A DNA stretch of 64,000 nt from Nitrospira sp. (GTDB lineage: Bacteria > Nitrospirota > Nitrospiria > Nitrospirales > Nitrospiraceae): contig CP126121.1 of assembly GCA_030123625.1 (NCBI GenBank), forward strand, positions 124,001-188,000, given 5' to 3'. Numbering within the stretch: position 1 is the first letter of the stretch; each line of letters opens with the position of its first letter. Below the pieces are notes generated by a model, which saw only the letters and a program-made list of their open reading frames with translations, was not told the DNA's origin and searched no databases. Below are positions 52,309 to 63,978 of the stretch, piece by piece. The translations under genes and the position numbers were made by a program.

Positions 52309-53624
<1,316 letters not shown>

Positions 53625-54492: not shown

Positions 54493-54888
54493 ATGCGGTT
54501 CAAGCTTTGGAAGACAGGGATGACGACAGTGATGCTAGCCGCGTCTCTCGGTGGTTGCGTAACCAGGCACTATACGCCTTTGGGTGATGCGGATAAGGCG
54601 GAAATCGAACAGCTCAAAGAGGATGTGTATCGGGTCGAATATCGAACGAGCGCCTTCACCCCGCAGGAACAGCTGGATCTGTATCTCCGTCGCCGCTGTG
54701 CGGAGCTGACCCTCCGTGAAGGATATGACTTTTTTCATCTGGCTCAGCGCACCGACGTGCTGAGCTTCTCACGCCGCACGGCCATGACGGTGACGCTGTA
54801 CAAAGGCCAAAAGTCCGTCGGGGTTGCGAACCTCTACGATGCCAAGGACGTGCTGGCAGAGACCGCGATCGTTCCGAAGTCCCGCTAA
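54493..54888 (+). CDS. Small lipoprotein (131 aa)
   Basis: The lipobox is AASLGGC at about residues 16-22. The mature part contains EIEQLKEDVYRVEYRTSAF, LYLRRRCAELTLREGYDFF and a beta-rich C-terminus (AMTVTLYKGQKSVGVANLYD). This layout is found in conserved lipoproteins of unknown function in several phyla. Convergent with the next gene. Confidence 0.7.
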   Translation: MRFKLWKTGMTTVMLAASLGGCVTRHYTPLGDADKAEIEQLKEDVYRVEYRTSAFTPQEQLDLYLRRRCAELTLREGYDFFHLAQRTDVLSFSRRTAMTVTLYKGQKSVGVANLYDAKDVLAETAIVPKSR

Positions 54889-54909: not shown

Positions 54910-56883
54910 TCACTTCCAGCCCACGACTTCGCAGCGACAACGAGAGTAGAAGGCATCCGGGTGATTTCCCCATGCAATCAGTGCATGTTGCATTTCAGCA
55001 AGCTCCGATTCGGTGGCCCATTGTTCTTTCAAAATCAGTGCTCGGTGTTGATTTAAGAAGACGCCGCCGAAGTAACGGCTGAAGCCAAAGGTAAACTCCG
55101 ACGTGCCGAAGGCATCGCACGATGCCGAGGCGGCAATGTTCTGAAATCCGGCTTCTCGCAGCAGCCGCCGCTGTTTGCGCCCGAACAGTGGATCTCCACC
55201 ATTGTGTTCAATCACCCGTTTCGTCAGCTTCCAAAACCGATCGACATCTTCATGGGCCGGGTAATAGACATCCCCGTCAAAATCCGCATCGCGCAATCCA
55301 ATCATGCCGCCCGGCTTCAGGATACGCCACAGTTCTCGCAAGGCTTTCATCGGCTCGGCAAGATGATAAAGAACGGCGTGGGCCAAGACGGCGTCGAAGG
55401 TTCCGTCCTCGAATGGAAGGGCATAGAGGCTGGCATGGTGAAACTCGACGTTGCCGATCCCACGCTGCTGCGCCTCTCGACGGCCCATGTCGAGTTGGCC
55501 GTCCTCAATGTCAATCCCCACGACTCGTCCCTGCGGGACCAGCGCCGCAAGAGTGACCGTGATTCCGCCTGGCCCACATCCACAATCCAATACGTGCATA
55601 TCTGGTTTGAGATGGGGAACGAAAAATGCGGCGTCACGAGCCGCACTCCGTCTCGCCAAACCTTGCAACACCAGCGGATCGTAGCCGGCAGAATAGGCTT
55701 CGTGTTTCTCAAAGGATTCTTTGCTGGTAGAAGCGGCCCGTGGGGTCAACATGTCTAAATAGGAAGCGAACTGATGATCCTCCAGTGCCGCACCCAGTCG
55801 CTCGCACAGCCGCTTTAATAAGTGGGTCCCACGTTCACTGGAGAAGTCCAGCATGCCACCGGCGATAACCCAGGTCGTCAACGGGGCGCCGAGCCCGGCC
55901 TGAAAATCACGACGGAGATCTCCGGGAGAATACCCTTCCACGCCACCGGTCTTCAGTGTCTCATAGTACAAGCTCAACAGCGACTCCTCCATCGCCCGTC
56001 GTTGCTCGACCGACATCGAGCCTGACAAAAAATAGGCCAGATCGCGCGGGCCACGGGAGCGCCGTGCCACCTGCCAATCGAAAATGGTGACGCCTCGGCC
56101 ATCGCTCGTTCCGGCAAATGCCAAATTGTCGGCTCGGAAGTCGCCGTGCGTGAGCGTCTGGGGACCATGTGAGCACTGTTGAGAGTATTCAGGGATGACC
56201 GAAGCAAATCTTCGTGCAATCTCCCGCAAACTCGGCGTCAGAAACTCGGCGCACCGTTGTTCGAAGCGAGGCAACATCGCCTGGTACACGCCGGCTCTCG
56301 CCTGAGTCTCATCGGTGAGCGTACGCAACCACGACAATTCTTTGAGCGAGGCAGATTCCCAAAAGTGCGCGTGCAAGAGTCCGAGTTGCCGCACGGCGAT
56401 CCGAGCGTCCGTTGCCGAACAACCGGCGAGATTGTCTCCGAATTCCACCGCACTGAGATCTTCCAGCAACAGAATACTTGCGCTTGTGCCTTCATCATAC
56501 TGGCTCAAGTACGGACGGGGCACGCGTAGAGGAAAGGCCGGCTGCAACGCCACGTCTCGATAAAACCCGGCCTCGGTTTCGTAGAGTCCCACTTTGCGTA
56601 GTTGCTGCCTGACGGCTGGATCCGCGGAGGACAATTTGGCAAAGATGGTGGCGGGAGCACCGGTTTCAGGGGCATCGTACGCGACGTGGAGACAGGCCGT
56701 TTGCCCTACAAATCCACTGCCTGTGGCAATCGGCGTCACATCGATACCCACAACAGTGGCGCGGTCAAGCACCCCTGCCTGACGTAGCGCTCTCGTCAGC
56801 CATACAGAACTTATGGCATCGGGTGTCTGCGGAATTGAGAGAAGACCGTCTATCTCTGTTGTCACGACGACGGATAGTACCAC
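54910..56883 (-). CDS. Kinase-fold phosphotransferase fused to a SAM methyltransferase (657 aa)
   Basis: Residues about 20-380 are an aminoglycoside/ecdysteroid-kinase-like phosphotransferase: ATIFAKLSSADPAVR (Lys), catalytic loop THGDFRADNLAF (H246, D248, N253) and metal-binding IFDWQVARRS (D269). Residues about 390-657 are a class I methyltransferase: HVLDCGCGPGGITVTLAAL (D433), GRVVGIDIEDGQLDM, FDAVLAHAVLYHLAEP and ILKPGGMIGLRDADFD. Both sites look intact. I do not know a substrate; a small molecule phosphorylated and methylated by one chain, perhaps as detoxification, is possible. The start may be GTG 56883 or GTG 56865. Confidence 0.85.
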   Translation of the reverse strand: MVLSVVVTTEIDGLLSIPQTPDAISSVWLTRALRQAGVLDRATVVGIDVTPIATGSGFVGQTACLHVAYDAPETGAPATIFAKLSSADPAVRQQLRKVGLYETEAGFYRDVALQPAFPLRVPRPYLSQYDEGTSASILLLEDLSAVEFGDNLAGCSATDARIAVRQLGLLHAHFWESASLKELSWLRTLTDETQARAGVYQAMLPRFEQRCAEFLTPSLREIARRFASVIPEYSQQCSHGPQTLTHGDFRADNLAFAGTSDGRGVTIFDWQVARRSRGPRDLAYFLSGSMSVEQRRAMEESLLSLYYETLKTGGVEGYSPGDLRRDFQAGLGAPLTTWVIAGGMLDFSSERGTHLLKRLCERLGAALEDHQFASYLDMLTPRAASTSKESFEKHEAYSAGYDPLVLQGLARRSAARDAAFFVPHLKPDMHVLDCGCGPGGITVTLAALVPQGRVVGIDIEDGQLDMGRREAQQRGIGNVEFHHASLYALPFEDGTFDAVLAHAVLYHLAEPMKALRELWRILKPGGMIGLRDADFDGDVYYPAHEDVDRFWKLTKRVIEHNGGDPLFGRKQRRLLREAGFQNIAASASCDAFGTSEFTFGFSRYFGGVFLNQHRALILKEQWATESELAEMQHALIAWGNHPDAFYSRCRCEVVGWK

Positions 56884-57026: not shown

Positions 57027-57971
57027 ATGAATACACTGGGCCACTCTCTTTCGCCGACCATCATCACTGTGCTGCTCGTATTTCAGGCAGGCTGTGGAGC
57101 AACACAGCTTGGGATGTGCGCGCCGCATACGAAAGAAGAAGGTGCGCCTACTCGGAATTGGGTCGAGTGTTTCGACCAACCATTCCCGCACGGGGGCATC
57201 ACCCATTCGGTGTTCTGCCTGCATGACGGCACCGACAAGCCTCCGGTGATTTTGCTCCATGAGTTGACCGGACTGTCACCGGGGACACTTGCTTACGCCG
57301 AAGCGCTCTCGCAGGACTTCACTGTGTACGTGCCCCTGCTTTTCGGCGAGAAAGGCAAGTTTTCTCTTACAAAAGGATTGTCAGCCTATTGGTTCGTAGG
57401 ATCAATACAGTTTTTCCCCGGCGGAGAATGGGGCGCTCCCCCTCAGGGAAGTGCTCCTATTGTGAACTGGTTGCGAGGTGTGGTGCAGAAGATTGGAGAA
57501 CGGCATACTCACCAGCGCATCGGCATCATTGGAAACTGTTTGACAGGCCCTCTTCCTCTCGCGCTGCTGAATCATCCTCGCGTCAATGCCGCGGTGGTGG
57601 CCCAGCCGTCACTGCCTCTCCGTTTCTGGTGGCACACGGATGCCGATCGCCGATCTCTCGGTCTGTCGACCGACGATCTGCAGTACGCGCGGAAGAGCAC
57701 TGCGAAAATCTATGGGCTGAGATTTGAAACAGATTGCATGTCGGCGTCGGCTAAACAAGATACGCTGCGCGACGAATTCGGCGATCGCTACATGAACGGT
57801 GAGATCCTGGCAAGCGCATATCACATCGAAGGAAAGCCGGTCAAGGCGCACAGCACGCTGATCGGTTCGTGGAGAGCGCAGGGCGAGGCGGGACGGCCTT
57901 CGCGAGACGCGCGAGAAAGAGTTCGAACGTTCCTTCTGGAGGAACTCAGTGAGCTTGCGTCGCACGGATGA
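57027..57971 (+). CDS. Dienelactone-hydrolase-like lipoprotein (314 aa)
   Basis: A signal and lipobox (VLLVFQAGC) near residues 16-24 predict a lipoprotein. The hydrolase core has VILLHELTGLSPGTLAYAEA, the nucleophile elbow IIGNCLTGPLPL with the expected Cys, and a late conserved region SAYHIEGKPVKAHSTLIG. Unlike the homologue at 36707, its nucleophile is present. The stop overlaps a 37-codon frame. Confidence 0.82.
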   Translation: MNTLGHSLSPTIITVLLVFQAGCGATQLGMCAPHTKEEGAPTRNWVECFDQPFPHGGITHSVFCLHDGTDKPPVILLHELTGLSPGTLAYAEALSQDFTVYVPLLFGEKGKFSLTKGLSAYWFVGSIQFFPGGEWGAPPQGSAPIVNWLRGVVQKIGERHTHQRIGIIGNCLTGPLPLALLNHPRVNAAVVAQPSLPLRFWWHTDADRRSLGLSTDDLQYARKSTAKIYGLRFETDCMSASAKQDTLRDEFGDRYMNGEILASAYHIEGKPVKAHSTLIGSWRAQGEAGRPSRDARERVRTFLLEELSELASHG

Positions 57972-62527: not shown

Positions 62528-62890
62528 ATGGCGGAAAGACTGACAGAAGCCCAATGTTGGGCTCTGTTCGAGCACCTGTTTCCAAATGGCCTCGACGATC
62601 ACGCCTTAGTCGAAGAACTGGCGCCCGAGGGGTGGGATCGGTCTCCTTTGCTGCACGTCTCCCATCCTACCGCGGAGCAGGTCTATGAGGAAACGATGAA
62701 GATCCGTGAGAATTTCAGAAACCTTCTCAAGAGGGACCCCGTAACGCCCGAAGCGGAACCGCCACTCACCCTGGATGCAGTCAGCCGCGAGATGATCTAC
62801 CGGGCACCAAATCTCGTGGAAGAATGCGCGGACTTACTAGTGTGGTGTCTCTCAAATAGCTATACAGTCAGCACCTGCCTGGCTCGGTGA
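62528..62890 (+). CDS. Hypothetical protein, 3' end altered by IS630 (120 aa as read)
   Basis: Begins MAERLTEAQCWALFEHLFPNG and is helical and charged, with a middle segment REMIYRAPNLVEECADLL. The last 17 or so codons come from the IS630 end that starts near 62838, so the natural C-terminus is lost. The family is not recognised. Confidence 0.6.
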   Translation: MAERLTEAQCWALFEHLFPNGLDDHALVEELAPEGWDRSPLLHVSHPTAEQVYEETMKIRENFRNLLKRDPVTPEAEPPLTLDAVSREMIYRAPNLVEECADLLVWCLSNSYTVSTCLAR

Positions 62891-63978
62891 ATCTTGCGGA
62901 GGATCTCTTCCCCCTTGGCTTTCCAGACGTAGCGCGTTGGTTGTGCATTTCGTTCGGCTAGGTACGCCAGAATCTGGTCGCCGAGTTCCTTGACGTGCTT
63001 AAAGCTCCCCTCTCGCACGACGTCGACGGTGAGGTCTCGGAAAAAGCGTTCGACCAGGTTCATCCACGACGCCGATGTCGGCGTGAAGTGCATATGAAAC
63101 CTCTTGTGCTTGGCCAACCACTTTTGGACGTCCGCATGCTTGTGCGTAGCGTAGTTGTCGGCAATCAGATGCAGCTCTAACCCCGCGGGCGTTTCGCGAT
63201 CGATCCGTTTGAGAAACTTCAGCCATTCCTGATGGCGGTGTTTCTCTGCGAGCATCGACACGATCTTGCCTTCCAGATAATTGAGCGCGGCAAACAGAGT
63301 CACCGTGCCGTGCCGGATATAGTCATGGGTGGCTGTCTTGATGTGCCCCACTCCCAGTGGTAAGCCAGGCTGGGTGCGCTCGATCGCCTGGCACTGACTT
63401 TTCTCGTCGCAGCAGAGCACCAGCGCCTTGTCAGGAGGATCCAAGTACAGCCGATCACATCCCAGAACTTTTCTTCGAATCGCGGATCGGTGGAGATCTT
63501 GAATGTTCTCGTCACGTGCGGCTTGATGTCGTTCTTTGACCAGAGGCGTTGGACCGTGCTCTTGGAGACCTTGTGGGCCTTGGCCATCGACCGACAACTC
63601 CATCGCGTGCGATTTGGTGGCGGTTGCACGGCCCCTGTCAGAATCGACTCGGTCACGCCGTGGGTGAGAATTGGCTTACGGCCACGGCCCGGTGTATCGG
63701 TTAACCCCTCCAGTCCCTTCTCGGCGAACCGTTGCCGCCACAACCGCACCGTGTGTCTGTTGATCCGCAACTGCTCAGCCACCGCCAGATCCGACCCGCC
63801 CGCGGCTGTCAGGAGGATGATCCGCGCCCGCAGGACATCCCGTTGCGCGGCCTTTCCCATCCGACTCATTCGCCCCAGCGTGGCCCGGTCCGTCTCGCTC
63901 AACACCACAGCCTTGGATCTCATAGCCCGGCAGTACATCCCCATCAGCCCATAATGTCTATCCATTTATGGGACACTA
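62838..63978 (-). mobile_element. IS630-family insertion sequence
   Basis: The left end near 62838 (CTAGTGTGGTGTC) and the right end near 63978 (GGGACACTAG) are short imperfect inverted repeats. A TA at each edge fits IS630 target duplication. The size of about 1.14 kb is normal. The right flank carries the AGGATGCTG module of the dispersed palindromic repeats. Confidence 0.75.
62860..63965 (-). pseudogene. IS630-family transposase split by a one-base frameshift
   Basis: The N-terminal frame (63300-63965) holds HTH domains (LGRMSRMGKAAQRDVLRARI, then RINRHTVRLWRQRF) and runs to PRFEEKFWDVIG. The catalytic frame (62860-63603) continues with LYLDPPDKALVLCCDEKSQ (first Asp), LELHLIADNYATHKHADV (second Asp) and SWMNLVERFFRDLT (Glu). 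At the junction the sequence reads GATCGGCTG where GATCGGGCTG is expected, so one G is missing. It is inactive unless frameshifting or a sequence error explains it. Confidence 0.85.

Follow-up and report, generated by a model that had tools for sequence, protein, structure and literature searches.

The window analysed here, 64,000 nucleotides of contig CP126121.1 (positions 124,001 to 188,000) from the nitrite-oxidising bacterium Nitrospira sp., carries on its reverse strand a frame of 657 codons with no internal stops, in which a predicted small-molecule kinase is joined by a short linker to a predicted SAM-dependent methyltransferase (Table 1). Alignments with homologues begin at residues 4-15, so the exact start codon is unsure.

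Table 1. The fused gene, its parts and its two flanking genes, in window coordinates
Feature	Position	Strand	Remarks
Whole fused gene, 657 aa, GTG start	54910..56883	-	Start codon uncertain by up to ~15 codons
Kinase half, residues 1-380	55744..56883	-	EcKL profile aligns with residues 78-311 (55951-56652)
Kinase catalytic loop HGDFRADN, residues 246-253	56125..56148	-	HxDxxxxN form
Kinase D-W, residues 269-270	56074..56079	-	Seen in alignments and sequence
Linker, residues 381-391	55711..55743	-	Site of TGA, eight codons and ATG in six relatives
Methyltransferase half, residues 392-657	54913..55710	-	Pfam
SAM-binding motif I DCGCGPGG, residues 433-440	55564..55587	-	Sequence and homologues
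Divergent neighbour, 314 aa, lipoprotein-like	57027..57971	+	Unmatched in Pfam; resembles a hydrolase by eye only
Convergent neighbour, 131 aa, putative lipoprotein (by eye)	54493..54888	+	Present at 9 of 15 loci

Pfam recognised both halves with scores that lie far beyond chance expectation. The kinase half matched EcKL (E 1.1e-17; 64.8 bits against a curated cut-off of 22) and also APH (E 6e-10; 39.7 bits against 23.2), and methyltransferase models aligned at about residues 411-584, the best of them with E 4.2e-26 and 91.8 bits against a cut-off of 27. The HGDFRADN loop occurs in all 12 full-length homologues, as does the D-x-G-C-G-P-G core of motif I. Residues H246, D248, N253 and D269 of the kinase are invariant in two alignments, and D269-W270 are presumably metal-binding, as in the family. 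These matches and motifs bear out the first-pass annotation in its description of a single frame with both catalytic domains intact.

Neither half could be named with NCBIfam: 68 families matched, and the best 25 of the 68 all fell far below their curated cut-offs, including the named methyltransferase equivalogs ArsM, UbiE/MenG, BioC and others (64.6 against 263 for arsenite methyltransferase). Among solved structures, the kinase profile reached 8v3v (E 6e-7) and 3csv (E 7e-5) best, and the closest to the methyltransferase profile was 3mgg, an unnamed methyltransferase (E 2.4e-39). The kinase half shares with the EcKL/APH small-molecule kinases their Pfam matches, the HxDxxxxN loop and the intact D-W, but differs in its fusion to a methyltransferase and in the distance of its solved sequence relatives. 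Likewise, the second half has the core and motif I of class I SAM methyltransferases of the Methyltransf_11/25/31 type, but differs from the arsenite-, UbiE- and phosphoethanolamine-methyltransferase-like enzymes in being kinase-fused and below the cut-offs just mentioned. An AlphaFold model of the fused protein, built from a shallow alignment of 17 close sequences, had a mean pLDDT of 40.5, too low for structural interpretation.

A search of 79 genomes of the genus (E <= 1e-25) gave matches in 14, with both halves adjacent in 12. The frame is continuous in six of these 12 (G000, which is the window, and G001, G033, G034, G058 and G422) and is interrupted by TGA at the junction in the other six (G027, G040, G018, G030, G044 and G016). 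In the split copies the kinase ends with the TGA, and after eight codons the methyltransferase begins with an ATG in the same frame, so these are two adjacent genes. Shine-Dalgarno matches of five bases are absent from the vicinity of this ATG. At the aligned position the ATG is missing from all six fused copies; three carry a different in-frame ATG within or close to the linker and a fourth has a GTG, so that a methyltransferase on its own might also be produced. The two activities are therefore not obligately fused, and homologues with separate genes, which the first-pass annotation had said would count against it, do exist. Of its claim to novelty, the intact fusion stands and the new architecture is weakened, since half of the full-length relatives hold the two parts as neighbouring genes. 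The other danger that it raised, a frame error joining two genes, is not supported, given the purifying selection described below and the many linker changes relative to unfused relatives. Indeed, the window's linker differs from theirs at several positions and is one codon shorter, rather than showing a single-base loss of the stop, and the linkers at the six fused junctions are individually distinct, with several differences. Selenocysteine, or another recoding of UGA, was considered and rejected: the TGA of the relatives lies at the domain junction and not at a catalytic position, and an ATG follows it.

The kinase was found without the methyltransferase in G056 and G012, and G030 and G001, both among the 12 genomes with the pair, carry an additional kinase. 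There are thus four kinase-only loci in four genomes, two of which lack the methyltransferase. A methyltransferase without a kinase gave no match at E <= 1e-25 in the 79 genomes. Across the phylum, 31 of 395 genomes matched at E <= 1e-20, with full-length matches confined to the genus and methyltransferase-only matches (37-45% identity) in other genera of the family. Searches outside the genus, which beyond the phylum favour close relatives, gave no full-length match. A scan of a GTDB-based collection used two short patterns, both from the kinase half and therefore limited in reach to close relatives; its 12 named loci comprised 11 Nitrospira metagenome assemblies and one weak Prevotellaceae methyltransferase match. 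A viral or plasmid origin of the fusion was rejected, as no relatives in viral contigs were confirmed and none of 269 matching plasmid records or 10 matching phage records had a query coverage of at least 80%. The neighbourhoods of distant plasmid kinases held mixed catabolic genes and no pointer to a substrate. Searches of open-licence papers did not find the fusion. The fusion is real and, within the reach of these searches, lineage-restricted.

In the pairs where it was computable, dN/dS ranged from about 0.07 to 0.23 in the kinase and from about 0.05 to 0.18 in the methyltransferase, well below 1 in fused and unfused copies alike, indicating that both halves are under purifying selection. 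The fused copies do not form one clade (p-AU 0.0005 for the methyltransferase tree and 0.00008 for the kinase tree), and at least three changes between the fused and split states are needed on each tree. In the methyltransferase tree the copies that branch deepest are fused, with weak support; the standalone kinases did not give a root for the kinase tree. The two halves also yield conflicting trees: in G016 and G044 the kinases group with P450-linked standalone kinases, and their methyltransferases group with those of G027 and the window. Against G027, G016 shows 56-80% identity as far as about residue 335 and 89-99% from about residue 340; over the first of these parts it has 85-97% identity with the standalone kinase of G001. 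This switch, together with the match to the G001 kinase, shows that the kinase part was exchanged by recombination; the breakpoint in the G016 kinase (L044:5299-6510), at about residue 335, is clear. The extra kinase of G030 retains the junction and the first methyltransferase residues before diverging, which marks it as a remnant of the pair.

Gene neighbourhoods were compared at fifteen loci, with that of G422 read separately. A cytochrome P450 gene adjoins the kinase at five of 16 kinase loci, the remaining 11 having no P450 neighbour. It is co-directional in G012, G001 (second kinase), G016 and G044, and divergent in G030 (second kinase); three of the five P450s were run against Pfam and matched with E about 1e-93. 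In the unfused G016 and G044 the genes run P450, kinase, methyltransferase. Of the 79 genomes, 66 encode related P450s (E <= 1e-40) and the family is multi-copy, so that adjacency may partly reflect chance or shared duplication, and the P450-kinase link is suggestive rather than proven. In G018 a decayed kinase remnant of 56 residues (L108:7981-8148) lies beside a divergent P450, at a place where the kinase of G030 is intact. The divergent 314-aa protein, often found beside the pair, was rejected as a pathway partner because it is present in 55 of the 79 genomes, against 12 for the pair, and so is not specific to the fusion.

Outside the genus, three of six standalone methyltransferase loci lie among tryptophan genes, the Pfam matches being GATase, Glycos_transf_3, PRAI, PALP and Trp_syntA in G225, GATase and PALP in G343, and PRAI and PALP in G352. 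No tryptophan genes were seen by eye at the standalone loci of G204, G354 and G264. The three methyltransferase relatives among tryptophan biosynthesis genes belong to sister-genus genomes (L118:4048-4815, L123:4489-5334 and L119:4405-5193) and lie directly before trpF in L118 and L123.

The reading that we favour, with a probability of roughly one half, is a bifunctional enzyme that tailors or detoxifies a small molecule and in which two adjacent genes that work together became joined or have stayed joined. The kinase would transfer phosphate from ATP to a hydroxyl of the small molecule, which in some species might be the product of the neighbouring P450, and the methyltransferase would methylate the phosphorylated molecule with SAM. 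Fusion would hold both activities at equal amounts and near each other; among the unfused relatives, stop-start coupling over the short gap, without a clear Shine-Dalgarno sequence, could have nearly the same effect. That half of the closest relatives have separate neighbouring genes makes the fusion a modest one, and hints at joint work on one compound. Successive action of kinase and methyltransferase on one molecule is consistent with the neighbours and with the co-occurrence of the halves: in the genus the methyltransferase was not found without the kinase, whereas the kinase is sometimes alone, which fits a kinase acting first. This asymmetry, taken with the P450 neighbours, suggests the order hydroxylation, phosphorylation, methylation. 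Phosphorylation followed by methylation, which the first-pass annotation put forward as a new modifying enzyme, is an order already known from phosphocholine and psilocybin synthesis. EcKL enzymes are described as phosphorylating ecdysteroids (PMC12117438).

A tentative alternative, which we consider doubtful, is that the stop between two co-transcribed genes was lost by accident, leaving a neutral fusion whose domains work independently on different substrates. The alternation of fused and unfused copies over both trees, the poor conservation of the linker and the kinases that lack a methyltransferase all favour this reading, but it accounts poorly for the constraint on both halves in the six fused copies and for a methyltransferase that was not seen without the kinase in 79 genomes.

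In phosphocholine synthesis phosphorylation comes first and methylation second, and the phosphoethanolamine methyltransferases of plants, nematodes and parasites N-methylate a phospho-amine. The Nitrospira protein is unlikely to follow such a route, with the kinase phosphorylating an amino alcohol and the methyltransferase N-methylating the product. The second half does count phospho(methyl)ethanolamine N-methyltransferases among its best named relatives of solved structure (5wp5, E 8e-21; 5wp4, E 3e-19), which it resembles in its methyltransferase core, and the APH clan, matched by the first half, includes choline kinases. However, the similarity spans the Rossmann core only, and the unnamed 3mgg is closer; the best kinase profile is EcKL, a family for larger lipophilic substrates, and P450 neighbours are a poor fit for an amino alcohol. 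We know of no kinase fusion in the phosphoethanolamine methyltransferase pathway.

It seems improbable that the unfused relatives also make the fused protein, by readthrough of the stop. The codon is always TGA, in frame and eight codons from the ATG, and C follows in five of six copies, UGA-C being a leaky stop. However, the constant spacing is explained by common descent, and the gap evolves unlike coding sequence (for example, pN 0.26 and pS 0.04 between G018 and G030), although it is rather too short for a firm test.

Decidedly a long shot is the more specific proposal that the P450 and the pair form a bacterial hydroxylate-phosphorylate-methylate pathway with the logic of psilocybin synthesis and a methyltransferase of unrelated stock, which would make or neutralise an aromatic, possibly indolic, compound. 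The indole or anthranilate hint comes solely from the methyltransferase relatives among tryptophan genes at three of six loci outside the genus. METTL16-like N-methyltransferases carry the motif [DNS]PP[FYW], which is absent from the 657-aa protein, so that it does not belong with PsiM. The kinase profile reaches the 4-hydroxytryptamine kinase PsiK (8zic) weakly (E 1.4e-3) and over the catalytic loop only, ranking below chains of acyl-CoA dehydrogenase 11 and aminoglycoside phosphotransferase. The P450-kinase-methyltransferase row of the two unfused loci has the same set of activities as PsiH (a P450 monooxygenase), PsiK and PsiM. Two studies describe psilocybin synthesis as strictly sequential, with PsiK before PsiM (PMC11808438; PMC10978996), PsiM as METTL16/RlmF-like (PMC10978996) and PsiK as closest to methylthioribose kinases (PMC11808438). 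The likeness is one of logic and not of descent, a precedent for the logic rather than for the substrate.

Finally, an assembly or sequencing artefact is barely credible: the named relatives are metagenome assemblies, but the window lies on a one-contig genome, the six fused junctions have distinct linkers and the same TGA junction recurs in six assemblies.

The toggling of fusion on and off among close relatives amounts to a natural experiment, which makes it probable that both enzymes serve a single pathway. It pairs a methylation step with a kinase family that has few known bacterial substrates, and offers a quick way to find what a bacterial EcKL-type kinase acts on. The pair also provides a clean system in which to study the fusion and splitting of neighbouring genes.

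Two long EcKL frames in another genome of the phylum (G160) were considered as methyltransferase fusions and rejected, being HMG-CoA reductase fusions instead. In both (L116:1364-4210 and L117:1166-4162, reverse strand), Pfam places HMG-CoA reductase first (E 1e-105 and 4e-103) and then, without a change of frame, an EcKL/APH kinase domain (E 1e-12 and 2e-11), with a PPDK_N frame alongside; they are possibly fusions of the reductase with a mevalonate-kinase-type enzyme. Within the window itself, a gene for an IS110-family (RNA-guided) transposase (52584-53624) lies about 1.3 kb from the fusion gene, and two overlapping reverse-strand frames at 62860-63965 resemble, by eye, an IS630-type transposase with a frameshift, either broken or read through.
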